From NCBI RefSeq assembly GCF_002197845.1, contig NZ_NIDE01000019.1, forward strand, positions 62,001 to 126,000: a stretch of 64,000 nt of DNA. The letters run 5' to 3'. The DNA comes from Fimbriiglobus ruber. GTDB taxonomy: Bacteria > Planctomycetota > Planctomycetia > Gemmatales > Gemmataceae. Positions 11,287 to 25,334 of the stretch are shown in pieces; the first letter of the stretch is position 1, and each line of letters opens with the position of its first letter. The translations under genes and the position numbers were made by a program. The notes under the pieces were generated by a model, which saw nothing but the letters and a program-made list of their open reading frames with translations, ran no database searches and had not been told where the DNA came from.

Positions 11287-13291
11287 AGACGCCCGGACCC
11301 GGGCCGCCCGGTTGGCCGACGGGTTGGAAGACATTGCCAGTGTGATTGGCGACCAACTCGACATGACCGACGAGGCGCGGCAACTCCGCGACAAGGCGCG
11401 ACATATCCGGGACGATCGGTTCCGGGTGGTGGTCGTCGGCGAATTCAAGCGGGGTAAGTCCACCCTCCTGAACGCCATGCTCGGCGGCGACGTCCTGCCA
11501 CGGAAAGTGACCGAGTGTACCGCCGTCATCACCATGATCCGGTACGCCTCCGCCCCGACGGTCCGCGTCGAGTTCGACACCGATCGGCCGGCCGACGACA
11601 TGTCGCTGGAGGAGTTTCGCAAGCACTACGAGTTGTCGGTCGACGACGCGGCCGCCCCGGCCGCCGCGGCCGAACGGTTCCTCCACGTCAAGCACGCCGT
11701 CATCAGTTACCCGATCGAACTCTGCCGGCAGGGCGTCGAGTTGGTCGACTCGCCGGGACTCGGGGCTCACGAGGCCCGGTCCAAACGGACGCAGAAGTTT
11801 CTTCCACAGGCCGACGCCGTGGTGTTCGTGCTGAACGCCAAACAGTTTCTCAGCCTGGAAGAAGTTCACTTTTTAGAGGCTGTTCTTCTGCCACTCGGCT
11901 TGCGGAACGTCTTCTTCGTCATCAACGGCTGGAACCTGATCGACGAGTCGGTCATCCGGCCGGAAGACGCCGATGTCGAGCGTGCGAACCTGGAAGCTCT
12001 CATCCGCCAGCGCCTCACCCCGTTTTGCGTCGTTGCCGGGAAAGACCGGTCGGCCGACCGGATCTTCCGGGTGAACGCGCTGGGGGCATTGAAGGCGCGG
12101 ATCCGAAAGCCCATTGCTGCCGCCATGTTGGAGGAGTCCGCGGTTCCGGAGTTCGAAAAGTCTCTGGAGAAGTTTCTGGTCGACGACCGCGCGAAGGCCC
12201 GGGCGGACGTCGTCCTCGGGGTCGTCCGGGCCGTAGCCGATGAGGCCGCCCGGTTCGTCAACACTCAGCTCGCGATGGCCGACAAGTCGGTCGCCGAGAT
12301 CGAAGCCGAGCGGATCGCCATCGAGCCGAAGCTCCAGCGACTCCGGGGCATCCGCGACCACATCGTCAATTTCCTTCAGAGTCAGTCGGCGGTCCTCCAA
12401 GACGTGTTAGTCACGTCCCTTCACGAACACATCAACCGGATCGAAAAGGATTTGCCGGACGAAGTCGCGAAGTTCGACATTTCGCCGATCACGAGCAAGT
12501 TTTTGGTGTGGGAAGGGATCAAGGACAAGATGCCGTGGCGGTCCGAGGAAGACCGCTTCCAGGCGCAAGTCGCCCGGTGTTTGAAGCCGCAGGTCCAGCG
12601 GATGCTTGAGCGGCGATTTGCCGACTGGCAGCAGGCGCTCGTTCGCAACGAGATGCGGGCCGTGATGATCGACGTCGAAAAGCATCTTCAGGAAGAGGCG
12701 GCCGAATACCAGCGGGTGATGCGCGAACTCGAAGACAAGATTGGGGCCCACGGCAGCCCGCTCCAGATCGAGGAGCAGGTGAAGCGGTGGCTCGGTTCGG
12801 AACAGGCGACCGGGCCGGGGACGTTCCAACTACCGGCTATGAACACGCTGGGCGAAGTGATCGGGTTGGTGATCATGGGGATCGTGGCCGAGGTTCTGGC
12901 CGAACTCGTTTTGCACGTCGCGACCGGCGGGATCACATTGGTGGTTAGCGGGATCACGGCCGTACTCCGGATGGGCTGGCGCGAGGCGAGCCTGCGGAAC
13001 CAGCTCCAGCAAGCGATCGTCACCGGGATCAAGGACGGCCTGAAAGACATGTGGATGAAGTACGCGGCCGACATCCGGACCCATGTGAAAGCCGGCTTCG
13101 AGGGCCTGGAGGGGAAAATCGCCGGAAGCATTGCCGAAGAGATCGCGCTGATCGACGCGAGCCTCCAGGCGATCATCGACAAGAAGAAGGAGCGGGAATA
13201 TTCGGCCGACCAGGAGCGGGCGCGACTGGAGGCGGCCCGGACGGCGATCGCCGACCGCGTTGCCAGACTGACGGCCGTTGCCGCTGGCTGA
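11264..13291 (+). CDS. Dynamin-like GTPase 2
   Basis: A 675-residue protein starting at ATG 11264, inside the 3' end of the preceding gene; a longer frame from 11090 would only add Arg/Pro-rich out-of-family sequence. Motifs: P-loop GEFKRGKSTLLNAMLGG at about residues 60-76, G2 threonine in KVTECTAVITMI, G3 LVDSPGLGAHEA, G4-like FFVINGWNLID. Long helical stalk segments follow, with a hydrophobic patch (GLVIMGIVAEVLAELVLHVATGG) at about residues 530-555 and a charged coiled-coil C-terminus (KKKEREYSADQERARLEAART). This matches large bacterial dynamin-like proteins, which often occur as adjacent pairs (for example DLP1/DLP2, or LeoA with LeoBC). It probably forms a complex with the protein encoded at 7987-9645. 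Confidence 0.88.
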   Translation: MTTPTTFEDARTRAARLADGLEDIASVIGDQLDMTDEARQLRDKARHIRDDRFRVVVVGEFKRGKSTLLNAMLGGDVLPRKVTECTAVITMIRYASAPTVRVEFDTDRPADDMSLEEFRKHYELSVDDAAAPAAAAERFLHVKHAVISYPIELCRQGVELVDSPGLGAHEARSKRTQKFLPQADAVVFVLNAKQFLSLEEVHFLEAVLLPLGLRNVFFVINGWNLIDESVIRPEDADVERANLEALIRQRLTPFCVVAGKDRSADRIFRVNALGALKARIRKPIAAAMLEESAVPEFEKSLEKFLVDDRAKARADVVLGVVRAVADEAARFVNTQLAMADKSVAEIEAERIAIEPKLQRLRGIRDHIVNFLQSQSAVLQDVLVTSLHEHINRIEKDLPDEVAKFDISPITSKFLVWEGIKDKMPWRSEEDRFQAQVARCLKPQVQRMLERRFADWQQALVRNEMRAVMIDVEKHLQEEAAEYQRVMRELEDKIGAHGSPLQIEEQVKRWLGSEQATGPGTFQLPAMNTLGEVIGLVIMGIVAEVLAELVLHVATGGITLVVSGITAVLRMGWREASLRNQLQQAIVTGIKDGLKDMWMKYAADIRTHVKAGFEGLEGKIAGSIAEEIALIDASLQAIIDKKKEREYSADQERARLEAARTAIADRVARLTAVAAG

Positions 13292-13468
13292 TCGTCGGCT
13301 ACCCGTTGTCGCACTTTCTAGGAGGCATGGTATTCACATTGGAATAAACACTCTGTTATGTTCGCAACGAGTTTACGGAGTGCTGTTGCACCGAATTGTG
13401 GGTTGTGATCCAATGCGATCGCTGGACAGGCAGACTCCACTTTGACTGAGTTGGCTGAGGGAATTCCA

Positions 13469-14332
13469 ATGCGACGAGGTGTAGTGCTAAGCCTCTTGTT
13501 GATCGCGTTGGCTTGTTCAATGGCTCTTGGGGGGGAGATCCTTTCCCTAAGCGATCCGATTGACGATGAGTGGTTGGTCGGCGCAGTGTCGGGACAGCCA
13601 CCTGTCAAGGAATTCGGCTCCGCTATCCATGAGTTGATTCGACCCGTTTGCGCTCTTAAGCAATTCCAGATCGAAAAGGTACTCGGCCGTCCTACCCCCA
13701 AAAAAGTAAAAGACTACGCCATGCCGATCGGCCAATCCCGAATGTGGTCACTGTCCGGCATTCGCTACGTAGACGAGAAGATGAACAAGGATCACACGAA
13801 ATTTTACCCGATCGATGACATAGCCGGGATTGAGGTGTGGTATGGGATCGATGGCGAAAGTCCCCAATTCGCTCTTTTGTATTTCAAGATCGACGAAACC
13901 TTCCCCAAATTAAAAAAGGTAGAAGAAAAGCATTCCGATCAGCCCGTAAAAAAAGTGGAGCGGCCGACCGCCCTTCGGAAGAACGGGATTGATTCTGAAC
14001 ATTGGAGCATGATGAAAACAGGTGTGAACAAAGAGGAGATTGAGAAACTCTTCTTGGTTCCCGCTGGTAATTACGCCCCAGGAACAGAGTACCTGACTCG
14101 AAGTTGGGGAATTCGTCGAGCCGGATATGGGAAAGTTCAAGAAACGCTAGAATGGCGGGGCGAAAAAGGATACATAGTCGTTGAATTCGACGAAAAGGGC
14201 ATTCTGCTCAACTCCGAATGCTTCCTTCCCGGCCGAGACCCTGTCACCAATGTTGCCGAGCGGCTCAAGTGGGATCGGTCGAAATTTGAGAAAGTGAAAA
14301 AGTACGTTGAAGGGCGGATGGCAGCGAAATGA
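13469..14332 (+). CDS. Exported protein of unknown function
   Basis: A 287-residue protein. The ATG at 13469 follows GAGGGA at seven bases; a start at 13442 has no signal sequence at its end. The N-terminus MRRGVVLSLLLIALACSMAL is a signal peptide; ALAC could be read as a weak lipobox, but the -3 residue is Ala, so I do not call a lipoprotein. The mature part is Lys-rich, with KFYPIDDIAGIEVWYGID and GEKGYIVVEFDEKGILLNSEC, mixed strand and helix. I recognise no family. The gene is clearly less GC-rich than its neighbours, with more A/T-ending codons, which may reflect recent transfer. It converges with the chemosensory operon across a 57-base gap. Confidence 0.7.
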   Translation: MRRGVVLSLLLIALACSMALGGEILSLSDPIDDEWLVGAVSGQPPVKEFGSAIHELIRPVCALKQFQIEKVLGRPTPKKVKDYAMPIGQSRMWSLSGIRYVDEKMNKDHTKFYPIDDIAGIEVWYGIDGESPQFALLYFKIDETFPKLKKVEEKHSDQPVKKVERPTALRKNGIDSEHWSMMKTGVNKEEIEKLFLVPAGNYAPGTEYLTRSWGIRRAGYGKVQETLEWRGEKGYIVVEFDEKGILLNSECFLPGRDPVTNVAERLKWDRSKFEKVKKYVEGRMAAK

Positions 14333-14389: not shown

Positions 14390-15613
14390 TCACTCGAAGT
14401 CGACTTCGAGCATCGAGAAGTCGTCGTCCAGCACGTCCGACCCGTTCAGTTCGCGGATGTGCTGGTGCAATGCGTCCATGACGGTCGTCGGCTCGGACGC
14501 TACGAAAGAGGTCAGCGCTTCGACGAATTCGGGCATGGTCCAGTCGCTGCCGTCGGTCTTGTGAATTTCCTGGGCGCCGTCGCTGTAAACGTATAGTCGG
14601 GCGGCCGACGGGATCTCGCGACGACCCGTCTCGAACGCGGGCCAGGGCATCATGCCGATCATTGGCCCCTGCGAATCGAGTTGGGTGGGCTCCTCCCGTC
14701 GACCGGCGCCGCCGGTGTAGAGCAATGCCGGCGGGTGGCCGCCGCCGGACCACGTCAGAACCCGGCTCGGTCCGTGATAGACGCCGTACCAAATCGTAAA
14801 GAACTTCTCCCCGTGTTTTTCGCAGGGAAACGCTTCGTTTAAGCCGAAAAGCACTTGACCCGGGTCGCGAAAGTCGGTGTTGGGGAGCGTCCCGGTCCGT
14901 AGCACGTTGAGGACCGTTACCCCGAGCAGGGCCGACGCTAGACCGTGCCCGGTCACGTCGAGCAGGTAAAGGGCGAGGTGGTCCGCGTCGATCCGGTGGT
15001 ACCCCAAAGCGTCGCCTCCCATTTCGGTGCAGGGGACGTACCGCCAGTCGATGCCGGAAACGGCTTTGTCGCGGCCTGATCGCCACGGGTTCGGGAGCAA
15101 CGAGCGGACGTAGCGAACACCGGCCGCGACTTCGTCCGCCAGTCGTTTCCGCCCGGCCGCGATCTCCTGGTACGCCGCGTTCCGCTGGAGTAGGTTGACG
15201 TACCCCTGGGAGTGGTAGCGGATGCGGGCGAGTAATTCGATCCGGTCCGGGAGTTTGACCAGGTAATCGTTGGCCCCGGCCGCGAAGGCGTCGGCCTTCG
15301 TCACCGCCTCCTCCTGACTCGACAGGACGATCATCGGCGTGTCGGCGGTGGTCGGGTTAGCCCGGAAGTAGCGGACGAGCATCAGCCCATCGATGTCCGG
15401 CATGACCAGGTCTTGCAGGATGACCGTCGGGCGGACGCGGTTCGCGGTCGGGATCGCGGCCTTCGGGTCCGGGCAGAAGTGGAACTCGATGCCCGCTTCC
15501 GGCGCGAGCATGCGGCGGACGGCTTCGCCGATCATCGGCTGGTCGTCGATCAGGAGGACGCGGGTCGTCCCGGTCGTGGGCGTACCGTTCGTGTGAATCG
15601 GCGGGCGGTTCAT
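14390..15613 (-). CDS. Response regulator with PP2C (SpoIIE/RsbU-like) phosphatase output
   Basis: A 407-residue protein; I chose the ATG at 15613, since the longer frame to 15667 adds sequence upstream of the domain. Residues 15-140 form a receiver domain (VLLIDDQPM, phospho-acceptor Asp in ILQDLVMPDIDG, conserved Lys in YLVKLPD). A short linker helix leads to a PP2C-type phosphatase domain with the metal-site motifs GGDALG, DVTGHGLASAL, SGGGHPPALL, YSDGAQE and DDDFSMLEV. In the RsbU/SpoIIE family such enzymes dephosphorylate a phospho-STAS anti-anti-sigma protein. It is the last gene of the chemosensory operon, at the position where wspR (diguanylate cyclase) sits in Wsp systems. Phosphorylation by the operon's CheA is the likely input. 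Confidence 0.9.
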   Translation of the reverse strand: MNRPPIHTNGTPTTGTTRVLLIDDQPMIGEAVRRMLAPEAGIEFHFCPDPKAAIPTANRVRPTVILQDLVMPDIDGLMLVRYFRANPTTADTPMIVLSSQEEAVTKADAFAAGANDYLVKLPDRIELLARIRYHSQGYVNLLQRNAAYQEIAAGRKRLADEVAAGVRYVRSLLPNPWRSGRDKAVSGIDWRYVPCTEMGGDALGYHRIDADHLALYLLDVTGHGLASALLGVTVLNVLRTGTLPNTDFRDPGQVLFGLNEAFPCEKHGEKFFTIWYGVYHGPSRVLTWSGGGHPPALLYTGGAGRREEPTQLDSQGPMIGMMPWPAFETGRREIPSAARLYVYSDGAQEIHKTDGSDWTMPEFVEALTSFVASEPTTVMDALHQHIRELNGSDVLDDDFSMLEVDFE

Positions 15614-15643
15614 GGCTGGTTCGCAACGGGACAATCGCGGAAT

Positions 15644-15692
15644 ATTTTTCGGCGCAGTTAAACGCAAATAAACGCGGATCAGAACAGAGATA
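15644..15692. repeat. Diverged single arm of a dispersed inverted-repeat family
   Basis: The sequence starting ATTTTTCGGCGCAG and ending AACGCGGATCAGAACAGAGA resembles the left arm of the perfect palindrome at 39527-39646 (ATTTTTCGCCGCAG ... AACGCGGATCAGAAGAGAT). Only one arm is present, in the gap between cheB and the REC/PP2C gene. It is probably a decayed copy of a genome-wide repeat. Confidence 0.55.
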
Positions 15693-15719
15693 AGAACGAG
15701 AAATCTTGAACCATCTCTT

Positions 15720-16733
15720 TCACCGCCTCAGCCGCGCCAGCACCATCCGGCCGATCTGGTCGGGCGGCATGACGTGGACGGCCGCGCCGAGTTTCGCGGC
15801 CGCGTCGGGCATGCCGAACACCACGGACGACTCGCGGTCCTGGGCGAACGTCGGCCACCCGGCCCGGCGGAGTTTGAGTAACCCCTCGGCGCCGTCGCGG
15901 CCCATTCCGGTGAGCAGCACGCCGGCGCCGGGCGCCGGCCAGTGGGCAGCCAGGCTATCAAACAACACGTCCACGTTCGGCCGGAACGGCGTGTCCGTCG
16001 GGTGAGCGGTGTAGGTCAACGTCCCGTCCGGGGTGACGACGAGGTGGTCGTCTTTCCCGGTGACGAGGGCGGTGCCGGGCTGCGGGGGCTCGCCGGCGCG
16101 GGCGAGCCGGATCGGAAGTCGGGTCTTCTGCCCGAGCCACTCGGCGAACCCGGAGGAAAATTCCGCGGTCAGGTGCTGGACGACCAGGACCGCCGCCGGG
16201 AACCCGGGCGGAAACTGGGCCAACACGCTCGCGATCGCCTGTGGCCCGCCGGTCGACGCGCCGATCGCAACCAAAGGCGGCAGACTTTGCGCGGGCTTCG
16301 TGCATGGAAACGACGGGCGTGCCCTCGCGCCCCCGTCCGGCCTGGCCTTCCGCGCCACCTGGGCAATCTTCGCGAGCAAGGCGTCGGCCCCGTAGGCAGC
16401 ACCGGCGCCGCCAAGGACCGGGGTGTTCACCGCGTCCACCGCCCCAGCTCCCAGTGCCTCGTACACGAGCCCGTAGTTCCCGGACACGGTCGCAGTCACG
16501 ATGAGAATCGGGCACGGGTTCGTCGCCATGATCCGGCGGGTCGCCTCGGCGCCGTTCAGCCCGGGCATGATCAGGTCCATCAAGATCACGTCCGGCCGGT
16601 CCGCCGTCGCCCGGCGAACGGCTTCTTCCCCGTCCCGGGCGACCCACGCGATCTGGTATCCCGGCACCCCAGTCACCACGCGGCGGACGGCTTCGACTGC
16701 CAACAATCGGTCGTCGACGATCGCGATCCTCAT
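15720..16733 (-). CDS. cheB: Chemotaxis-type protein-glutamate methylesterase CheB (WspF-like)
   Basis: A 337-residue protein. The N-terminal receiver runs to about residue 120 (IAIVDDRLLA, phospho-acceptor in VILMDLIMPGLNG, VTATVSG). The C-terminal methylesterase domain has the catalytic triad Ser in AIGASTGGPQA, His in VVQHLTAEF and Asp in LTGMGRDGAEG. It removes methyl groups from, or deamidates, receptor Glu residues and thereby sets receptor sensitivity; CheR (21333-22592) is its counterpart in the same operon. Its place after the CheA gene matches wspF. An unrelated REC/ATPase gene sits between cheA and cheB, which is not so in the canonical Wsp order. Confidence 0.95.
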   Translation of the reverse strand: MRIAIVDDRLLAVEAVRRVVTGVPGYQIAWVARDGEEAVRRATADRPDVILMDLIMPGLNGAEATRRIMATNPCPILIVTATVSGNYGLVYEALGAGAVDAVNTPVLGGAGAAYGADALLAKIAQVARKARPDGGARARPSFPCTKPAQSLPPLVAIGASTGGPQAIASVLAQFPPGFPAAVLVVQHLTAEFSSGFAEWLGQKTRLPIRLARAGEPPQPGTALVTGKDDHLVVTPDGTLTYTAHPTDTPFRPNVDVLFDSLAAHWPAPGAGVLLTGMGRDGAEGLLKLRRAGWPTFAQDRESSVVFGMPDAAAKLGAAVHVMPPDQIGRMVLARLRR

Positions 16734-16797
16734 TCACTCCCGCCTGTTCGGTCCCGGGCGACTTCCTGTTGCGCGGCGCGGTCACCCGCGCCGCCCT

Positions 16798-17682
16798 TCA
16801 CGCCGTGCGTTTAATCATGGTGATTTCGTTGCCGGTCGCGCTGTGTTCGATCGTGTCGAAAAACGTGCGGATCAGCAACAGGCCGCGGCCGCTCGCCTTG
16901 TCGAGATTCGCCGAGGCCGTCGGGTCCGGCAGTTTCTTCGGATCGAACCCCGGTCCCTCGTCCCGGACACGAATCTCGAGAACCGTGGACCGGGTGGCCC
17001 GAATCGCGATATGAACCCGGCGCCGGCTGTACGGCAGCTGCCGGGCCCGTGCCGCGACCAGGTCGTGATACGCCTGCCAGTTTCCTTCCTTCAGGTCCGA
17101 CCCGATTTCGAGGTTGCCGTGGACGATCGCGTTCACGACGGCCTCGTGGACCGCGATGCCGACCCGCATGTGGACCGACGGGTCGAACAAGTTCATTTGC
17201 CGCATGAGGGCTTCCGTGTGCCCGACGGCGTAGGGGATCAGATCGGTGTCGTTTTCGAGAGCGAACAGGTATTCCACGGACGTCATGCGGTCGAGGAACA
17301 GCGACTGCTTCCGCTGCGAAGCGGAGACCGAGAGGATCTCGTCCACGAGTTCGGCCACATCCCGCGCGAGGTTTCGTTTCGGGAGGTAGCTCGCGGCCCC
17401 GGCCCGGAGGGCACTGACGGCCAATTCCTCGCTGCCCGAATCGGTCGTGAGCAGGACCGGGAGGGCGGGAAATTCGGACCGTAAGGCGTGGACCAACGAG
17501 AGCCCGTTCATTTCGGGCATGTTCATGTCGGTGAGAACGAGGTCCGGCAGCGCCCGGCGGACGGCAGCCAGTCCCGCTACCCCGTTCCCGGCCAGTTCCA
17601 CCTTGTGTCCGGCTCCGAGGAGAATCCCTTCCAGGTGCTTCGCCTGGAACAGGCTGTCCTCCACCACCAGAATACTGGCCAC
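16798..17682 (-). CDS. Response regulator with RsbW-like HATPase (serine kinase) output
   Basis: A 294-residue protein. Residues 1-120 are a receiver (ILVVEDSLFQ, phospho-acceptor Asp in LVLTDMNMPEMNG, Lys in SYLPKRN). The C-terminal half is a GHKL ATPase of the RsbW/SpoIIAB kind rather than a full histidine kinase: N-box HEAVVNAIVHGN, G1 DEGPGFDP, G2 SGRGLLLIRTFFD, and no H-box. RsbW-type proteins phosphorylate a STAS anti-anti-sigma protein and may bind a sigma factor. It stands between cheA and cheB, about 110 bases after cheA. With the REC/PP2C protein of the same operon it makes an opposing kinase/phosphatase pair, each with its own receiver. Confidence 0.9.
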   Translation of the reverse strand: MASILVVEDSLFQAKHLEGILLGAGHKVELAGNGVAGLAAVRRALPDLVLTDMNMPEMNGLSLVHALRSEFPALPVLLTTDSGSEELAVSALRAGAASYLPKRNLARDVAELVDEILSVSASQRKQSLFLDRMTSVEYLFALENDTDLIPYAVGHTEALMRQMNLFDPSVHMRVGIAVHEAVVNAIVHGNLEIGSDLKEGNWQAYHDLVAARARQLPYSRRRVHIAIRATRSTVLEIRVRDEGPGFDPKKLPDPTASANLDKASGRGLLLIRTFFDTIEHSATGNEITMIKRTA

Positions 17683-17755
17683 GGGGAACCCTCCTCTCCC
17701 GAATGATTCACATGATCTAATGAGCCATCATATCCGATCACGCGACGGCCCGGGG

Positions 17756-17777
17756 CGGGCACGTGATTGCGTGCCCG
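17756..17777 (-). terminator. Intra-operon hairpin after cheA
   Basis: CGGGCACG (17756-17763) pairs with CGTGCCCG (17770-17777) around a six-base loop. It lies 15 bases beyond the cheA stop and before the REC/HATPase gene. There is no T-run. It could reduce expression of the three distal output genes relative to the core. Confidence 0.35.
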
Positions 17778-17791
17778 ACCGACTCGTTCGA

Positions 17792-20653
17792 TCAGTCGGC
17801 GTGGGAGCCGCCGATCAGATCCTCGATCGCCTGGATGAAGCGGCCGTCGTGAAAACTGCTCTTGGTCAGGTAATAGTTGGCCCCGACCTCCAGGCCGCGG
17901 TCGCGATCCTCTTTACGATCCTTATAGGATACGATGACGACCGGGAGAGCCTGGGTTTTCGGGTCCGAGCGGATTGTTCGGACGAGATCCAGGCCGGTCA
18001 TCCGCGGCATGTCGATGTCACTGACGATGAGGTCGTACCCGCCGCCGCGAACTGCGTTCCACCCGTCCGCACCGTCGACCGCGACGTCGACCTCGTACCC
18101 CTTGCCCTGGAGCATCTGGCGCTCGACTTCGCGGACGATCGCCGAGTCGTCGACGACGAGCACCCGTTTCTGTCGTGCGGTCGTCCGGCGCGAGGGCCGG
18201 CGGTATCTCAACTTGCCCTCGTGGACGAGTACGGACACCGACCGGATCATGTCGTCCACGTCCACAATCAGCACCGGCGATCCGTCTTCCAGGAGGGCCG
18301 CCGCCGCCACGTTCGGGACTTTGCCGAGCCGCGGGTCGAGGGGGCGGACCACGAGGTCTTGCTCGCCCAGGAACCCGTCGACGATCAGCCCGTATTGATT
18401 CGCCCGGTCCCCGATCAGCGCGACGGACAAGTCCGTCGCCCCCGGTTCCGGGGCCGGCTGGTCGAACACCAGGTGGGCCGGGACCAGCCCGATTTGGCGG
18501 CCGTCGGCTTCGAAGTGGGGCTTGCCTTCAAGTGTGCGGACCTGCGCCGTGGGCAACCGGAGCAGGCGGTCCGTCCGGTTGAGCGGGAGGGCGTACGGGT
18601 CGCCCGCGATCCGGACGAGGACCGCCCGGACGACCGAAAGCGTAATCGGAAGCTGGAGTTCAAAGGTCGTCCCGTGGCCGAGTCGGGTGGTCAGCCGGAC
18701 CGCGCCGCCGACGCCTTGCGCGAGGGCCTGAACGACGTCCAGACCGACCCCGCGGCCGGAAATGTCCGTGACGGTGTCCGCGGTGGAGAAACCGGGGAGG
18801 AACAGGAAATCGAGGAGTTCCGCGTCGCTCAGGCGGCTGGCCATGTCCGCGGAGGTCAACTTTTTGTCCACGACCTTGCGGCGCAACTGCTCCAGGTCGA
18901 TGCCCCGCCCGTCGTCCGTCACGGTGATATTCAGCGTCCCGGCGTGGTGTCGGGCCTCGACGCGGAGGGTGCCGCTTTCCGGCTTCCCGACCTCAACCCG
19001 TTCGGCCGGGAATTCCAGCCCGTGGTCGAGGGCGTTTCGCAGCATGTGGCCGAGCGGGGCTTCGAGCTTGTCGAGGATGTCGCGGTCGACGTCGGTCTCG
19101 TTCCCGGCGACTTCGAAGCGGACCTTCTTGCCCAGTTGCTTGGCCACGTCCCGGACCATGCGGGCGAGTCCGTGCGTGCCGTCGCCGAACGGTCGCATGC
19201 GGCTGGCAATGACTTCCCGGTACAGTCGGCTGTTCAAGTCGTCCGACCGGCGGGCGTGGGTCTCGAACTCGTCCACCCGTTCGGCCAGGATTTGTCGACA
19301 CACGACCAGGCGTTTGCGGGCGTCTTCGGCTGTGGCCCGTATCCGTCCTCCAGCCAAGCCGGCTGGCGACTCACCGGTCGGGCTGTTTCCCCCCGTGGCA
19401 CGGATGACGTCCTCGATCACATCGCCAAGATGGTCCTGGTGCTTTTTCAACTTGAGGAGGGACCGGGCGAACGGCTGGAGCCACCGGGCCTCGATCAACG
19501 ACTCCCCGGCCAACCCGAGTAGCCGGGTCAGGCTCAGCGCGCTGATCCGGACGACGCGGTCTTTCCCGTCGTGGCCGGCGACCTCGCTCTTGGCGGGCGG
19601 TTCGGGTTCCACGGGCGGTGGCGGTAAATGAATCGGTGTCGCGGAGATCTTGGCCGCCACGGTCGCGGGGGCGGCGTGAGCTTGTTCTGGAACCGGAACC
19701 GCAACCGGCGGACTGGTCGCGGGCGGAGGGGGAGTTCGAGGCGAGGGCGGCGGGGCCGCAACGGTTTCGTGATTCAAAATCGCGCGGATCGCCCCGACTG
19801 ATTCGGCCGCCCGCCCGGCATTATCCGCGGCCCACACGGCGATGTCGGTCTCGGCCAACTCCGCGAGCAGGTCGACGGCGGCGAGTAGCGTGTCGACGTT
19901 GCCCGGGGCGAACTGGAGCGCGCCTTTCTGGACGGCGACGAAAAACTCCTCCATGACGTGCGCGACGTCCACCGCCGGGTCGCAGCCGACGATGCGGGCT
20001 GCCCCTTTCATGGAATGCGAGGCCCGCATCAGCGGTTCGATCTTGCGCGGGTCCGGCGCGTCCCCTTCCAGGTCAACGATCCCCGATCCGAGTACCCCGC
20101 ACAGAGCCCGGACTTCCTCGCGGAATAAGTCGAGGAGGCTCGCCGCGTGGGGCTCGATCAACGCAGGTGGGGCAGGGGGCTGGGGCGGGGCCGGCGGACG
20201 GACGACAACTAGAGGAGGCGCGGGCGGCAGTGGGGCAACTGCTGGAGCGGGCTCGCCGTTATCGGCGGATAATTTCGCGAAGACGGCGGCGATCCGGTCG
20301 ACGGCCGGTCGGGGGCGCGACTCGTCCGCCGCGGCGTCGGCCACCTCTTTGATCGCGTCCACCGCGGCGAGCAGCGCGGTCACGCGGGCCGCGGTCAACG
20401 AAAGCCCGCCGGCGCGGGCGGCGGCGAAAGCGTCTTCGACCGCCCGCCCCAAGTCGGCGGCTGTCGTGACGCCGACGATCAGGGCGGACCCCTTGATTTG
20501 TCGGGCGGTTCGTTCCAGCGCGGGCAAATCCTCGACCCGGCCGGGGTCGACGGCGAGGCGGGCTAGCCCGTCGGCGAGGGTCTGAACGTGGGCCGTCGCG
20601 TCCCGGTGGAAGAGGGCAACGAGTGGGTCCGGTCCGTCGTCCGGAGGAGTCAT
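17792..20653 (-). CDS. cheA: Hybrid chemosensory histidine kinase CheA-REC (WspE-like)
   Basis: A 953-residue kinase. The start at 20653 is set by GGAGGAG six bases upstream and by ATGA overlap with the stop of the preceding cheW. Domains in order: a first HPt-like domain (residues 5-130), in which the phospho-His is replaced by Arg (ARQIKGSALIVG); a second HPt (about 190-300) with intact His (SHSMKGAARIVG); a Pro-rich linker; dimerisation; HATPase with HMLRNALDHGLEFP, DDGRGID and GRGVGLDVV; a CheW-like domain; and a C-terminal receiver (VLVVDDSAI, VSDIDMPRMTG, LTKSS). It autophosphorylates in response to the receptor and should pass phosphate to CheB and the two output regulators. The C-terminal receiver is as in WspE/FrzE. 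Confidence 0.95.
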   Translation of the reverse strand: MTPPDDGPDPLVALFHRDATAHVQTLADGLARLAVDPGRVEDLPALERTARQIKGSALIVGVTTAADLGRAVEDAFAAARAGGLSLTAARVTALLAAVDAIKEVADAAADESRPRPAVDRIAAVFAKLSADNGEPAPAVAPLPPAPPLVVVRPPAPPQPPAPPALIEPHAASLLDLFREEVRALCGVLGSGIVDLEGDAPDPRKIEPLMRASHSMKGAARIVGCDPAVDVAHVMEEFFVAVQKGALQFAPGNVDTLLAAVDLLAELAETDIAVWAADNAGRAAESVGAIRAILNHETVAAPPPSPRTPPPPATSPPVAVPVPEQAHAAPATVAAKISATPIHLPPPPVEPEPPAKSEVAGHDGKDRVVRISALSLTRLLGLAGESLIEARWLQPFARSLLKLKKHQDHLGDVIEDVIRATGGNSPTGESPAGLAGGRIRATAEDARKRLVVCRQILAERVDEFETHARRSDDLNSRLYREVIASRMRPFGDGTHGLARMVRDVAKQLGKKVRFEVAGNETDVDRDILDKLEAPLGHMLRNALDHGLEFPAERVEVGKPESGTLRVEARHHAGTLNITVTDDGRGIDLEQLRRKVVDKKLTSADMASRLSDAELLDFLFLPGFSTADTVTDISGRGVGLDVVQALAQGVGGAVRLTTRLGHGTTFELQLPITLSVVRAVLVRIAGDPYALPLNRTDRLLRLPTAQVRTLEGKPHFEADGRQIGLVPAHLVFDQPAPEPGATDLSVALIGDRANQYGLIVDGFLGEQDLVVRPLDPRLGKVPNVAAAALLEDGSPVLIVDVDDMIRSVSVLVHEGKLRYRRPSRRTTARQKRVLVVDDSAIVREVERQMLQGKGYEVDVAVDGADGWNAVRGGGYDLIVSDIDMPRMTGLDLVRTIRSDPKTQALPVVIVSYKDRKEDRDRGLEVGANYYLTKSSFHDGRFIQAIEDLIGGSHAD

Positions 20654-21336
20654 CGGAAACTCCTCCGGAGCGAGTGGAACAGGCGGTCTGGGTCGAGATA
20701 TCCGACAGCCCGGTTGCCCCACCGAAAGACGCCGCGGGTTAGCTTCGCCGTCCCGCTGGCGATGGTTGACGGCAGGCCGACGAGGTCGTCCGGGCGGAAG
20801 TGGTAGACGTCATGCACCTCGTCGACCGGAAACACCCACCGCACGCCGTCTTTTTCGGCGACCAGCAGCCGTTCCGCCGTCGTATTCGGACGGTCGCTCG
20901 CTTCCTCACCGGCGCGGAGCAGGTTCGCCAGAGAGACGGCAATCTGCAGTTCCCCGCGGATGTTCACGAGCCCGATCAACACTTCGTCCGACTGGTGCGG
21001 GACGCGGCGGACGGGGCGGACCGGGCCGACTTCGACGGTCAGTCCCACGTCGAGCGCGAGCAGTTCGCCGCCGACGCGGAAGATGACCACCGGAATCGTC
21101 CGTGCCGGTGGAGGTACGTCGGCCGCCGCGATCCGCTCGGTCCACTCTTCTGTGTACCCGGCCGGCGGCCGGCGCTCGTAGAGCGACTGGCCCGCCGCCG
21201 TAAACACGGGGCAGTTGCGGCAGTGCGTGACCCGGGGGAGTTCCGGGCAGGTGCCGGCCCCGTGGACGCCGATCCGATTCCAGCAGTCGCCCGCCGCGGC
21301 GCTCGCGGTCGGGAGTGAGACGGCGCCCGGGGTCAC
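20650..21336 (-). CDS. cheW: CheW-like coupling protein with N-terminal Cys motif (WspD-like)
   Basis: A 228-residue protein. The GTG at 21336 overlaps the cheR stop as GTGA and follows GGGAGGAG, so the start is secure. Residues 18-45 contain CWNRIGVHGAGTCPEL and HCRNCPVF, four Cys and one His spaced like a small metal-binding or redox element. A CheW domain follows (VVIFRVGGELLALDVGL, GLVNIRGELQIAVSLANLL, WVFPVDEVHDVYHF). It couples receptor to CheA. The N-terminal Cys segment is, from memory, a feature of WspD-type CheW proteins; its role is unknown. The 3' end overlaps cheA by four bases. Confidence 0.92.
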   Translation of the reverse strand: MTPGAVSLPTASAAAGDCWNRIGVHGAGTCPELPRVTHCRNCPVFTAAGQSLYERRPPAGYTEEWTERIAAADVPPPARTIPVVIFRVGGELLALDVGLTVEVGPVRPVRRVPHQSDEVLIGLVNIRGELQIAVSLANLLRAGEEASDRPNTTAERLLVAEKDGVRWVFPVDEVHDVYHFRPDDLVGLPSTIASGTAKLTRGVFRWGNRAVGYLDPDRLFHSLRRSFR

Positions 21337-22592
21337 GACTGCTCCTCCCGCCGCGCGGCGCGGCCGGCCCGCCGGCGGTAGTTGGCGGCGGCCGCGACGT
21401 CGCCGCGGTTTTGGGCGAGGATCATCATGTGGACGAGCGCGTCGTAGTGTCCGGGGTCGAGGTAGAGGGCGCGGGTGAAGTCCGCCTCGGCGTCGGCCGG
21501 CCGGCCGGCCATCCCGTTGACGATCCCACGGAGGGCGAGCGCGTCCGCGGACGGCCCGAGTTCTCGGAGCACGTGAGCGCAAATGGCAGCCGCCTCGGCC
21601 ACGTTCCCGGCGTCCGCGGCCGCCCGCGCGCGGCTCAAGACCGGGTCGAGAGGGGCAGGCGGGGGAAAGTCGGCTGTCTTCGTTGAGGGTGCCGGAGTTC
21701 GCGGCCCGGGCCGGATTTGGGGGACGGTGACGGGCGGCAGGAACGCCGGACCGTCGAACGGCCGGCGGATCGTCTCGGCCATCCGCACGATCGTCGACGC
21801 GGTTCTGGAAAACGCGAACGCTTGCGGCGGGAGTTCCGGGCGGAACCTCGGGTCGATCAAGCCGAGCGGTTCGGCGTGCCCCATGTACATGACTCCGCCC
21901 GGGGCCAACAAACGATCCAGCGTGGCGACCACGGTCCGCCGGGCGGCGTCCGTCAGGTAGATGAGAAGGTTCCGACAAAAGATCGCGTCGTAAGGTTGTT
22001 CGTTCGCCAGGCAGTGGGGGTCGGTCAAATTCGCCGTGCGAAAGAAGACGACCTTGCGGACCTCGTCGCGGATCGCGAACCCGTCGCCCGCTTCGGTGAA
22101 GAAGCCGTCCCGCGGGTACGGGTCGGCCCCGCGGAACGAATTCCGCCCGTACCGCCCGGCCCGCGCGACCCCGACCGCCCTCGTGCTCACGTCCGTCGCG
22201 TCGACGCGAAAAGCGTCGGGTGCGAGGCCGGTCGAGAAGAGAGTCATCGCGACGGAATAGGGTTCTTCCCCAGTCGAACACGGCGCGCATAGCACGCGGA
22301 ACGGGCGCGCGGGGGACGGCACGGGCTTGCGGGCGATCGCCATTTGGGCCAAATGTTTGAACGATTCCGGATACCGGTAGAACCACGTCTCGGCCACCAC
22401 CACGGCTTCGACGAGGCAGTCGAGTTCGCGGGCGTCGCCCGCCAGCCGCCGGGCGTAGTCGTCCGCGTCGGTGGTGCCGAGTTCCTTCATCCGGCGGGCC
22501 AGCGCGGATTCGATCATGCGGTCGCCCACGGCTCGCGCGGACAGGCCGACGCGGCGCTCGAGGAGGCCGACGATTTGTCCCGCGGTGGTCAT
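21333..22592 (-). CDS. cheR: CheR receptor methyltransferase with C-terminal TPR (WspC-like)
   Basis: A 419-residue protein starting at ATG 22592, which overlaps the preceding cheW stop by four bases (ATGA). The N-terminal helical domain and SAM-dependent methyltransferase domain are evident: VVVAETWFYRYPESF, RVLCAPCSTGEEPYSVAM (SAM motif), DAIFCRNLLIYL, GGVMYMGHAEPL. After a Pro-rich linker (about residues 290-335) there are TPR-type repeats (AAADAGNVAEAAAICAHVL, ADAEADFTRALYLDPGHYDAL). It methylates receptor Glu residues with S-adenosylmethionine. The TPR extension is characteristic of WspC-like CheR. It ends by overlapping the second cheW as GTGA. Confidence 0.95.
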   Translation of the reverse strand: MTTAGQIVGLLERRVGLSARAVGDRMIESALARRMKELGTTDADDYARRLAGDARELDCLVEAVVVAETWFYRYPESFKHLAQMAIARKPVPSPARPFRVLCAPCSTGEEPYSVAMTLFSTGLAPDAFRVDATDVSTRAVGVARAGRYGRNSFRGADPYPRDGFFTEAGDGFAIRDEVRKVVFFRTANLTDPHCLANEQPYDAIFCRNLLIYLTDAARRTVVATLDRLLAPGGVMYMGHAEPLGLIDPRFRPELPPQAFAFSRTASTIVRMAETIRRPFDGPAFLPPVTVPQIRPGPRTPAPSTKTADFPPPAPLDPVLSRARAAADAGNVAEAAAICAHVLRELGPSADALALRGIVNGMAGRPADAEADFTRALYLDPGHYDALVHMMILAQNRGDVAAAANYRRRAGRAARREEQS

Positions 22593-23053
22593 GGGGCCGG
22601 TCCCCCGCGGCGAGCGAACAGGGCGGAGCGATACGCCGCCGGGACGAGCCGGCTGACGTCCGGCAGCCGGAGCATGCCGTCGGCGTCGGCGACCAGGGGG
22701 CCGAGGTCCGGGCCGTCGGTCTCTTGCCGGCGGGCGGACCCGGCGCCGGTCGCGGCCAGCGGCTTCAGTTCGGTCACCCGCTCCGCCAGCAAACCGAGCG
22801 GGGCGGGGCCGTCGTCCGTCGCGTGCCCGACAACGACGATCCGCGCGCTCAGTTTGTCCGGGCAGGCCGTGCCGGTCACCAGTTGGTTCAGGTCGAGGAC
22901 CGGGGTGACCGCGCCGCGGAACACGAACACACCGGCGACCCACCGCGGGCCGCCTGCCAGTGGGTGCAGGCGGACGGCGGGGACGACTTCGATGACGGCG
23001 GCGGCGGGGACGGCGAACCGCTCGGTGCCCGCGCTGACGAACAAGCACAGCAC
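22589..23053 (-). CDS. cheW: CheW-like coupling protein (WspB-like)
   Basis: A 154-residue single-domain CheW. It starts with GTG at 23053, only four bases after the stop of the receptor gene, and ends overlapping cheR by four bases. Typical CheW features: LCLFVSAGTERFAVPAAAV, WVAGVFVFRGAVTPVLDLN and IVVVGHATDDG with APLGLLAERVTEL. It should bridge the receptor signalling tip and CheA. Two CheW proteins in one operon is the Wsp arrangement. Confidence 0.92.
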   Translation of the reverse strand: MLCLFVSAGTERFAVPAAAVIEVVPAVRLHPLAGGPRWVAGVFVFRGAVTPVLDLNQLVTGTACPDKLSARIVVVGHATDDGPAPLGLLAERVTELKPLAATGAGSARRQETDGPDLGPLVADADGMLRLPDVSRLVPAAYRSALFARRGGPAP

Positions 23054-23057
23054 GGGC

Positions 23058-24713
23058 TCACCCCGCTACGGTGAACTGGGAAACCTGGCTCTTAAGTACG
23101 TCGGCGGAGGCGTGGAGGTTGCCCGTCGCCGCGTGGAATTCCTTCAGGGCGGCCGACGTCTGCTCGACCCCGGCGGCCAGTTGGAGCATCGCCTCGTTGA
23201 TCTGGCTAGCCCCCGCCGACTGCTGCCCCATGCCCTCGTTGACCGCCTGGAACCGGTCGTTCAGGGCGTGGACCTGTTCGATGATCTGGCCCATCTGGGT
23301 GTTGATCTCGGACACCCGCGCGACCCCGGACCGGACCTCGTCCGTGAACTTGTCCATCTCCATCACGCCGGCGGACACGGCCCCTTGCATCTGCCGGACC
23401 ATGTTCTCGATGTCCAGGGTGGCCACGGCCGTCTGGTCGGCGAGCCGGCGGATCTCTCGGGCGACGACCAGGAACCCGCGGCCGTATTCGCCGGCCTTCT
23501 CGGCCTCAATGGCCGCGTTGATCGAGAGCAGGTTCGTTTGGTCGGCGACTTTGGTGATCGTCGTGACGACGGCGTTGATGTCGTGGGCTTTTTCCCGCAC
23601 CACGCCGAGCTTGGCCGAAATCGAACCCGTCGACTCGGCGAGCCGCTGCATGGTGGATTTCATCCCGCTGAGCCCGGCCCGCCCGGCCTCGGCCAGCGAA
23701 CCGGCTTGCTTGCCACCGTCGTTTACCGCGTTCATCGTCTGGGCGAGTTCGCGGGACGTGGCGGTGATTTCCTTCACGGCGGCCGCGATCTGGTTGGTCG
23801 ACGTGCCCAGGTTCTGCATCGTGGCCTCCTGCTGGCGGGCGGTCGCCGCGATCTCGGTCGAACTCGCGTACAGTTGGATGCTCGACTCGCGGACTTTTAC
23901 CACGAGGTCGTGGATACGGTGGACGACGGTGTTGATGGCGGTCGCGAGCCGGCCGATTTCGTCGTGCGTGCGCACCTGGACCCGGGCGGTCAGGTCGGTG
24001 GCCCCGGCCGACATGTCTTCCATCCGGGCGATCAACTCGTTCGTCGGCTCGACGATGCCGCGGGAGATCCACCAGCCGGCCGCGGTGAGGACGACCAAAA
24101 CGGTCGCCCCGACGATGACCAGGACGCGGTTCCAGAAGTGTACGGTTTCGTCGGCTTCCGCCGCGAAGCGGTCCACCGACTCGATCGCCAAGACTTTGAC
24201 TTTTTCGGTGCCGGCCTTCTGTTGCTTATAAAGGTCGCGGAGCCGGCCTTTCAGGATACCCTGCGCCTTCCCGGTCGCCGCCCCGCCTTCGAGAACGGCG
24301 GGTAAGAATTCCCGGTTCGCCACCTCGAAGAACTCGACCGCCGGGGCGTGGGCTTCGGACCGCAGCGTTTCCTTGATTTTTCCCTCGGGTAGCCGCCGGG
24401 ACCACTCGGCGTACTTTTCCTGGTATTCCTGTTCGGCTCGCCGGTACCGGGAGACGAGGTCACGCTGGCGATTCGGGTCCGTTTCGTGCCCGAGTTCGAG
24501 GGTGGCGAGGTACGGTTCGCGAATGAAGAGGACCGGCGGGTCGAGGCTATTCTGGAGATCCTGTTCGACCTGGATCTTGTCGTACAGCGGGCCTTTGATT
24601 TTAACCGTGTTCAGGGCGATCGACTGGATCACGGACGTGACGACCAATCCGGCCGCGAAGAGGCCGATCAAACTAAACAGCTTGCCTCGGAACCCGAAGC
24701 GGAGACCGCCCAT
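23058..24713 (-). CDS. Methyl-accepting chemotaxis protein (WspA-like receptor)
   Basis: A 551-residue membrane receptor, first gene of the chemosensory operon. There is a transmembrane helix at residues 10-32 ([20 protein letters not shown]), an all-helical periplasmic domain to about 185, a second helix near 190-212 ([20 protein letters not shown]), a HAMP domain ending near 265, then the coiled-coil signalling domain. The hairpin tip that binds CheA/CheW is [29 protein letters not shown], close to the consensus. Gln/Glu-rich adaptation sites are likely flanking it. The ligand is unknown; WspA-type receptors sense surface contact or envelope stress. Confidence 0.95.
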
Positions 24714-24980: not shown

Positions 24981-25334
24981 ATGAACGTCGGGATGATGCG
25001 GATCGGGTTCGCGATTTTCTGGCTCGGGATTGGGGTCGTTGCGTTTCTCCGCCACCAACTTCTGCCGCCGGAAATTGCGGAACGATTCGATTCGAGCAAC
25101 ATAACAATTGGCGGGCTGTTGGCGTTCGCCTTGGCCGGCTGGAATCTGACGCGCTGGTACCTCTCGCGCCGCCCCAGGCAGGACGAGGAACCGCTGGCCC
25201 GCCGCAAGCCGCTGGAGCGACGGGAGGACGAGCCGCGCCACGAAGAATACATTCCCGAACTGGATTTCACGCGGCCCGCGCCGGAAGCGCCCCGAGGTCA
25301 GGATACCGAGGCGCCCGGCGGTACGTCACGATAG
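24981..25334 (+). CDS. Small membrane protein of unknown function
   Basis: A 117-residue protein starting at ATG 24981 after GAGGGTAGG. Two hydrophobic segments (MRIGFAIFWLGIGVVAFL at about 6-23 and ITIGGLLAFALAGWNLTRWYL at about 41-61) flank a short loop. A charged, Arg/Glu-rich cytoplasmic tail follows (RRPRQDEEPLARRKPLERRE). No family recognised. The 3' end overlaps the convergent ygfZ-like gene by nine bases. Confidence 0.65.
   Translation: MNVGMMRIGFAIFWLGIGVVAFLRHQLLPPEIAERFDSSNITIGGLLAFALAGWNLTRWYLSRRPRQDEEPLARRKPLERREDEPRHEEYIPELDFTRPAPEAPRGQDTEAPGGTSR

Follow-up and report, generated by a model that had tools for sequence, protein, structure and literature searches.

What does a Wsp-type chemosensory array control when its operon contains no diguanylate cyclase of the WspR kind? 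The question is raised by a 64,000-nucleotide stretch of the Fimbriiglobus ruber genome (contig NZ_NIDE01000019.1, positions 62,001 to 126,000 of the forward strand), called the window here. A minus-strand run of eight tightly packed genes, at 14390-24713 of the window, encodes in this order MCP, CheW, CheR-TPR, CheW, CheA-REC, REC-HATPase_c_2, CheB and REC-PP2C, where MCP denotes a methyl-accepting chemotaxis protein (chemoreceptor), REC a receiver domain, and PP2C a family 2C protein phosphatase. A first-pass annotation had described the gene order as that of Wsp, had declared WspR absent, and had proposed that an RsbW-like and an RsbU-like enzyme jointly took its place and acted on a STAS protein. 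According to the analysis reported here, the operon encodes a Wsp-family array by gene content and ancestry. We consider it reasonably probable that this array ends in a regulator made of a WspR receiver and a PP2C phosphatase that acts on a STAS protein, and that an LvrC-like kinase was added in one genus. The array would then probably control a protein-phosphorylation switch instead of the biofilm messenger cyclic di-GMP (c-di-GMP).

The WspR receiver and its phosphatase

The receiver and linker of REC-PP2C match PDB chain 3bre, which we take to be Pseudomonas aeruginosa WspR, with an E value of 1e-56 and 92 of 152 residues identical (61%). For the receiver alone, identity rises to 68% over 121 residues. 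The second PDB match, 3i5a (3.2e-53), is likewise named a GGDEF regulator, and the best match beyond these two is P. aeruginosa RssB, a REC-PP2C protein of another kind (1.3e-26). The phospho-acceptor D68 is invariant in the 16 proteins of alignment A4, in which the invariant columns lie mainly within the receiver, and the phosphatase residues D201, D219 and D345 are intact. An ordinary c-di-GMP Wsp effector was considered for the operon and rejected, as Pfam finds a SpoIIE domain and no GGDEF domain. In view of the 61% identity to 3bre, and of a CheA that belongs to a clade with those of wspR operons (see below), the sequences indicate that the WspR receiver was kept and its GGDEF domain exchanged for a SpoIIE-type phosphatase. 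The statement that WspR is absent is thus correct for the GGDEF domain, but not for the receiver, which is present on REC-PP2C. Two cyanobacterial members of A4 have a divergent phosphatase and are, over the whole protein, 35-36% identical to REC-PP2C of the window, and the receiver-phosphatase fusion may therefore have more than one origin.

The genes of the operon are as follows.

23058..24713, minus strand: chemoreceptor (MCP, HAMP) in the WspA position (Pfam MCPsignal 3.2e-34, HAMP 5.1e-11)
22589..23053, minus strand: CheW in the WspB position (Pfam CheW 2.4e-17)
21333..22592, minus strand: CheR methyltransferase with C-terminal TPR in the WspC position (Pfam CheR 2.2e-38)
20650..21339, minus strand: CheW with a Cys-rich N-terminus, seen by eye, in the WspD position (Pfam CheW 7.8e-20)
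17792..20653, minus strand: CheA with two Hpt domains and a C-terminal receiver in the WspE position (Pfam Hpt in two stretches, HATPase_c, CheW, Response_reg; alignment A1; tree)
16798..17682, minus strand: REC-HATPase_c_2, RsbW-like and LvrC-like, in the cheA-cheB interval (Pfam; alignment A3; AlphaFold2 model; match to 9qih)
15720..16733, minus strand: CheB methylesterase with receiver in the WspF position (Pfam CheB_methylest 2.2e-56; NCBIfam NF009206 above cut-off)
14390..15613, minus strand: REC-PP2C, WspR-type receiver with SpoIIE/RsbU-type phosphatase, at the operon end as first annotated (Pfam SpoIIE 1.1e-32, Response_reg 1.2e-19)

Domain calls are Pfam matches above their cut-offs, except for the weak TPR_1 match of CheR (0.00057), which is below. 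The first five genes, from MCP to CheA, overlap or almost touch (cheW2 and cheA share 4 nucleotides), and the gaps upstream of the REC-HATPase, cheB and REC-PP2C genes (109, 64 and 106 nucleotides) are operon-like. The REC-PP2C gene has an alternative TTG start at 15667. No sigma gene is found among the eight genes. A promoter scan returned 3 sites against 1.0 expected and was not used as evidence.

The Wsp order MCP-CheW-CheR/TPR-CheW-CheA/REC-CheB is present in the window, with the REC-HATPase interposed between CheA and CheB. An alignment of 12 CheA orthologues was scanned against named genomes; the top 80 loci were retained and mapped with the domains of the window. Many of these loci have the order MCP-CheW-CheR-CheW-CheA, mostly followed by CheB; those with Wsp order come from Burkholderia, Paraburkholderia, Caballeronia, Kaistia, Mesorhizobium, Desulfoferrobacter, verrucomicrobia and planctomycetes. 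Cyanobacterial loci contain the same genes in permuted order, and some of the 80 loci end at contig edges. A quick tree was made of 124 CheA cores, with support from the Shimodaira-Hasegawa-like approximate likelihood ratio test (SH-aLRT); in it, the window CheA lies inside a 110-row clade (support 100) together with CheAs of wspR-bearing operons, while 14 other planctomycete CheAs lie outside. Within this clade, it belongs to a planctomycete subclade of 20 rows (support 95), where it groups with genomes of family f1 and a named Fimbriiglobus metagenome-assembled genome, a placement that suggests a host in the Gemmataceae. The signalling part of the window MCP is 39-62% (mostly 46-53%) identical to MCPs beside the CheA of loci with GGDEF output. 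The first-pass assignment of the Wsp gene order is thus borne out by Pfam domains, CheA tree and locus maps across relatives, and by these sequence comparisons the operon is a Wsp-family array. Since a SpoIIE domain stands in place of the GGDEF effector, we file it as a Wsp-family variant and not as a c-di-GMP Wsp system. Output labels on the CheA tree (33 PP2C, 30 GGDEF, 16 other) require at least 7 changes; 45 of the 124 rows, including the 14 outgroup planctomycete CheAs, carry no label. At four of the loci labelled as other, Pfam identifies a nucleotide cyclase (L149, L135) or a hybrid histidine kinase (L161, L177). The cyclase genes (L149:13820-15310 and L135:14302-15642) lie downstream of a cyanobacterial Wsp-type cheA and encode a WspR-type receiver with an adenylate/guanylate cyclase domain. 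In the window CheA, the first Hpt is degenerate (His to Gln) and the second keeps its His; according to alignment A1, the His-bearing Hpt varies between genera, being the first in L120, L121, L122 and L125, and both in L115.

The distribution of REC-PP2C follows that of the Wsp CheA. An orthologue of this CheA is present in 14 of the 41 genomes searched (best E at most 2.8e-200; next best 3.4e-81). A REC-PP2C orthologue (E at most 1e-50) occurs in all 14 of these, and in 2 of the 27 genomes without the Wsp CheA (Fisher's test, 3.4e-9; this and all other p values ignore the relatedness of genomes or loci). It is also absent from G004, G006, G007 and G036, which are outside the 41 genomes. Among 392 genomes drawn from the phylum, own genome included, REC-PP2C is found in 18 at E at most 1e-90. 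Its gene lies upstream of the MCP gene in eight of the 14 genomes, two of them read across a contig break (G013 for the rest of the operon, G025 for the receiver part), and behind cheB in two, the window and G016. By these sequence counts, REC-PP2C is a family-wide partner of the array. The first-pass annotation had named as its possible undoing a standard GGDEF output, or an already described STAS target, in identical operons; the family loci read have REC-PP2C instead, inside the operon for 10 of the 14 genomes and elsewhere in the other 4.

On either side of the operon, the presumed flanking open reading frames at 13442-14332 and 24981-25334 (both plus strand) have no Pfam match at E 0.01. 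The open reading frame at 11090-13291 (plus strand) has the appearance of a dynamin-like GTPase, judged by eye (GEFKRGKSTLLNAML).

The REC-HATPase between cheA and cheB

The gene inserted ahead of cheB encodes a Response_reg and a HATPase_c_2 domain, and Pfam finds no HisKA in it, in agreement with the earlier description of an enzyme without H-box. The phospho-acceptor D52 is invariant in the 32 sequences of alignment A3, and together with D68 of REC-PP2C it upholds the claim that both output receivers have an intact acceptor Asp. The same 32 members share invariant N-box residues (E180 and N184) and invariant glycine loops, which fits an active ATPase-kinase. In the AlphaFold2 model, the mean predicted local distance difference test score is 91.8, and the predicted template modelling score is 0.69, so that the relative placement of the domains is unsure. 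The best solved match over the full length is LvrC (9qih, SenB chain, released in 2026), with a profile E value of 9.2e-38 and Foldseek rank 1. A profile of the HATPase part (A5) matches RsbW (6m36, 6.1e-13) and SpoIIAB chains. A PDB search with 94 HATPase residues gave no match, and the VIA-align list for the protein is taken up by receiver domains and LvrC; RsbW is not on it, but is found by the sequence profile.

Homologues of the REC-HATPase occur in 35 of 59 relatives, own genome included (E at most 4.1e-37). The gene lies in the cheA-cheB interval in all three genomes of the genus (the window, L055 and L056), and in two congeners it overlaps cheB by 1 nucleotide. The interval is free of it in all nine other family loci that hold both genes, and among the best 80 loci of named genomes its HATPase part was nowhere left as the best-matching domain. 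As REC-PP2C is family-wide and the REC-HATPase belongs to the operon in a single genus, the differing distributions rule out that the two replaced WspR as a pair. In G012, of a second genus, a HATPase_c_2 homologue lies convergently, on the opposite strand, directly behind cheB (L118), and a receiver fragment of the same family is found on the far side of a run of N; this is possibly a second association of a REC-HATPase with the operon. The association with the window CheA is read from gene position. In the three congeners, helix 1 of the REC-HATPase receiver is unlike that of other A3 members, which would be compatible with a change of kinase. Two standalone REC-HATPases that were read, L036 and the paralogue L074 in the F. 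ruber genome, sit behind a hybrid kinase with REC-REC-Hpt; for the paralogue (contig 17), this is a PAS hybrid kinase directly ahead of it.

Partners, target and competing explanations

In a few loci, STAS and kinase-type genes are found next to distant orthologues of REC-PP2C, which backs a partner-switching output. In Desulfoferrobacter suflitae (L132), REC-PP2C closes the Wsp operon and is convergent with RsbW-like and STAS genes according to Pfam. In a Rhizonema metagenome-assembled genome (L148), genes of the slr1658 and slr1659 families (NCBIfam, above cut-off) come after it in the same orientation; the former has a weak resemblance to SiaB kinases, and the latter matches Pfam STAS with 16.4 bits, under the cut-off. 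The open reading frame behind the STAS-like gene (L148:10213-11865) has the appearance of an MscS-type channel by eye. In the planctomycete G148 (L224), REC-PP2C, STAS and RsbW form a run with no cheA nearby, and in the planctomycete G328 (L244) a convergent RsbW-type gene lies 65 nucleotides behind REC-PP2C and a STAS gene 4.8 kb from the receiver. An open reading frame of the latter locus (L244:8091-9599) combines an RsbW-type domain with a long C-terminus that is GNAT-like by eye but, at E 0.001, matches nothing in Pfam. The STAS proteins of L132, L148, L224 and L244, and those of F. ruber contigs 11 and 8, all have a Ser at the aligned place that we presume to be the phosphorylation site.

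A kinase-type gene is found within 4 kb of the output in 5 of 37 PP2C loci, the window included, versus 0 of 47 others (p 0.014), and in 4 of 36 versus 0 of 47 when the window is left out (p 0.03). The profiles used for this count, and for the STAS count given below, were our own; for some of them, part or all of the sequences came from the linked loci L132, L148 and L224, which therefore match by construction. With profiles free of linked loci, L148 is lost and the kinase count is 4 of 37 (L132, L224, L244 and the window) versus 0 of 47. The kinase linkage to REC-PP2C is thus suggestive. For STAS genes, the loci make up a set of examples and not an enrichment, and they are too few for firm statistics.

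The target in F. ruber itself would have to be encoded away from the operon. The 12.4 Mb genome has four STAS matches, on contigs 3, 8 and 11, and none on contig 19, to which the window belongs. The first-pass statement that the window holds no STAS gene is thus correct, and a STAS gene hidden in it is excluded. On contig 11, an RsbV-like STAS protein adjoins an RsbW-like protein of 163 residues; a single STAS gene stands alone on contig 8, and contig 3 carries the other two, as part of a stressosome-like group. In that group (L052), RsbR-/RsbS-like STAS genes are accompanied by a HATPase_c_2 match, a HATPase_c_2-SpoIIE fusion and a longer open reading frame that also matches HATPase_c_2. The contig 11 STAS protein has a match (E at most 1e-10) in 42 of 44 genomes, with or without the Wsp CheA; the weakest matches, in G004 and G013, are perhaps not orthologues. 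We infer that this RsbV-type protein is the best candidate for the target. It could possibly be fed by several phosphatases. The genome has six SpoIIE matches.

The proposed mechanism starts from what can be read off the sequences: the Wsp order, the ancestry of CheA and of the receiver, the intact catalytic residues, and the co-occurrence of REC-PP2C with CheA. An input would control CheA, and phosphorylated CheA would pass its phosphate to the REC-PP2C receiver and to CheB. Phosphorylated REC-PP2C would be the active phosphatase, and would remove phosphate from a STAS protein of the RsbV type whose gene lies elsewhere; the RsbV/RsbW pair of contig 11 is its most likely source. Within the genus of the window, the LvrC-like REC-RsbW would probably give the array a second means of acting, in the opposite sense, on this STAS protein or a relative of it. 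By analogy with HsbR, phosphorylated CheA should turn REC-PP2C on and the REC-HATPase off, and thus leave the STAS protein unphosphorylated. The direction of the switch, its target and a surface input are predictions. Partner switching as the output is likely from the gene neighbourhoods, and to this extent the first-pass proposal stands, thanks to the STAS and kinase genes beside orthologous REC-PP2C in L132, L148, L224 and, more loosely, L244. Its other part, the joint replacement of WspR by two enzymes, does not. A push-pull system, in which one CheA phosphorylates the receivers on an opposing phosphatase and kinase of the same STAS protein, is a tentative extension that we would not yet favour. 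We are equally hesitant about its assembly in two steps, an exchange of the WspR effector and a later capture of an LvrC-like kinase in one genus.

Several observations weigh against a Wsp-driven partner switch. As assembled, REC-PP2C lies outside the operon in the four genomes G001, G002, G033 and G034. In G010 and G020 (L253, L254), a REC-PP2C that is 55-57% identical to that of the window is divergent beside a non-Wsp cheA operon, and the protein is therefore not tied to the Wsp CheA alone. The family loci showed no STAS gene in the vicinity of the output. Counted up to 4 kb from the output gene, STAS genes occur in 3 of 37 PP2C loci versus 0 of 47 others, which is not significant (p 0.08), and in the recount with profiles free of linked loci they occur in 2 of 37 versus 1 of 47 (L146, a stressosome-like pair). 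In G148, the Wsp-type operon is elsewhere in the genome than the REC-PP2C, STAS and RsbW run; no WspR-type output gene was found within the 19 kb read there, and behind cheB a TPR-like gene is followed by one for an NtrC-like regulator (L231:7432-9698, by eye), a possible other output. Because of this gene, the pairing of the L224 REC-PP2C with the distant operon is a guess. Finally, the REC-HATPase family is mainly standalone, and its presence is not significantly linked to that of the Wsp CheA (12 of 14 genomes versus 16 of 27, p 0.16), so that the idea of the one tracking the other was dropped.

These two features of the REC-HATPase family speak for a reading in which REC-PP2C is the Wsp output, but the REC-HATPase shares the operon while being wired to another input, such as a hybrid histidine kinase elsewhere. 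The widespread occurrence of the family and the hybrid kinases ahead of L036 and L074 also speak for this alternative. We nevertheless consider it unlikely, because the gene is in the cheA-cheB interval in every genome of the genus, with the 1-nucleotide cheB overlap in two, because a HATPase_c_2 reading frame and receiver fragment recur behind cheB in G012, and because receiver helix 1 of the congeners differs from that of other members. Alternatively, the REC-HATPase could work as an anti-sigma factor under receiver control and bind a sigma factor directly, as has been put forward for LvrC, its best full-length match among solved structures; it would then not be the kinase of the STAS protein on which REC-PP2C acts. 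This is rather unlikely in view of the invariant N-box Glu and Asn and glycine loops, as in an active ATPase-kinase, and of an operon without sigma gene. As RsbW-type proteins can act both as anti-sigma factors and as kinases, an anti-sigma role would not exclude the proposed partner switch.

The phosphatase might also act on no STAS protein at all, but for instance on a Hanks-type kinase or on a protein that such a kinase phosphorylates. Planctomycetes have many Ser/Thr kinases, and the family loci, as noted, lack STAS genes near the output, while STAS linkage elsewhere is rare. The SpoIIE type of the domain, and the STAS and kinase-type genes that do accompany REC-PP2C in the four loci described above, make this improbable. 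An ordinary Wsp system, with a diguanylate cyclase encoded elsewhere and the two odd genes as passengers, would account for the Wsp gene order and the Wsp CheA. It is very improbable, since the WspR-type receiver itself sits on the PP2C protein, and that protein accompanies the Wsp CheA in 14 of 14 related genomes. The reading that we prefer is thus still a WspR receiver-PP2C regulator that acts on a STAS protein.

Relation to known systems

The comparison suggests that Wsp is a modular array that extends well beyond proteobacteria, in which the WspR receiver is kept and the effector exchanged; GGDEF, PP2C, nucleotide cyclase and hybrid kinase effectors are found with WspR-type receivers in the loci read. 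If the proposed output is correct, chemosensory arrays have a direct line into partner-switching networks, and an RsbV/RsbW pair of wide conservation acquires a defined entry point in planctomycetes. If the push-pull arrangement also holds, a chemosensory system would have a bidirectional protein-phosphorylation output. Among the open-licence papers listed, covered mostly at the level of titles and the openings of abstracts, none was found to describe a WspR-receiver phosphatase or a REC-HATPase insertion, which does not prove their absence from the literature.

Links between chemosensory and partner-switching components are known from other contexts. F7 stage 1 che clusters hold anti-sigma factor antagonists and a serine phosphatase (PMC7184735). 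They belong to a different class that has cheD and an Aer2-like receptor, and the available part of the source describes no WspR-type receiver on the phosphatase. Neither cheD nor an anti-sigma antagonist gene is among the eight genes of the window operon. In Nostoc punctiforme, the chemotaxis-like Hmp system and the partner switch HmpU, V and W are both needed for hormogonia (PMC6495340, PMC8256260), but are named as separate systems in the portions of these papers at hand. Of the components of an Rsb-type partner switch, the SpoIIE-type PP2C and the RsbW-type kinase are both present in the window, each fused to a receiver, and a STAS gene is missing from the locus.

For the REC-HATPase, the closest known protein is LvrC of Leptospira, whose receiver and RsbW-like Bergerat domain are matched along the full length. 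According to the accessible text of PMC13269768, LvrC is a receiver-regulated anti-sigma factor that is phosphorylated by the histidine kinase LvrB, and no link to PP2C or cheA is described there. In HsbR/HsbA and CrsR/CrsA, a receiver is known to control two activities towards a single STAS protein, one of PP2C and one of RsbW type; phosphorylated HsbR is reported as the phosphatase form and unphosphorylated HsbR as the kinase form (PMC6482189, as far as available). In HsbR and CrsR, the activities are combined in one polypeptide, which in the case of HsbR is fed by HptB, whereas the window has two separate genes with cheB between them. A PP2C output of a chemosensory operon has a precedent in clusters with CheR-TPR, of the alternative cellular function (ACF) class, the outputs of which include a receiver joined to a phosphatase of family 2C or to a nucleotide cyclase (PMC3447774). 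The output type is shared with the window, but in the part of that source consulted neither the WspR receiver nor STAS/RsbW partners nor a REC-HATPase is brought into connection with it.

The most similar system overall is Wsp of Pseudomonas and Burkholderia, with WspA-F and either WspR or WspH. It has been stated that Wsp occurs in beta- and gammaproteobacteria and nowhere else, and that its outputs are WspR or WspH only (PMC8552884, in its available part). The Wsp-type loci outside these groups contradict the exclusivity, and Wsp gene names have already been mentioned in planctomycetes (PMC6461901, available part). The receiver-histidine kinase type of WspH does not apply to the window, as Pfam finds no HisKA in either output protein. 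The gene order, the two CheWs, CheR-TPR, CheA-REC, CheB and the WspR-type receiver are shared between Wsp and the window operon; the effector attached to this receiver is neither a GGDEF domain as in WspR nor a histidine kinase as in WspH, but a SpoIIE-type PP2C.

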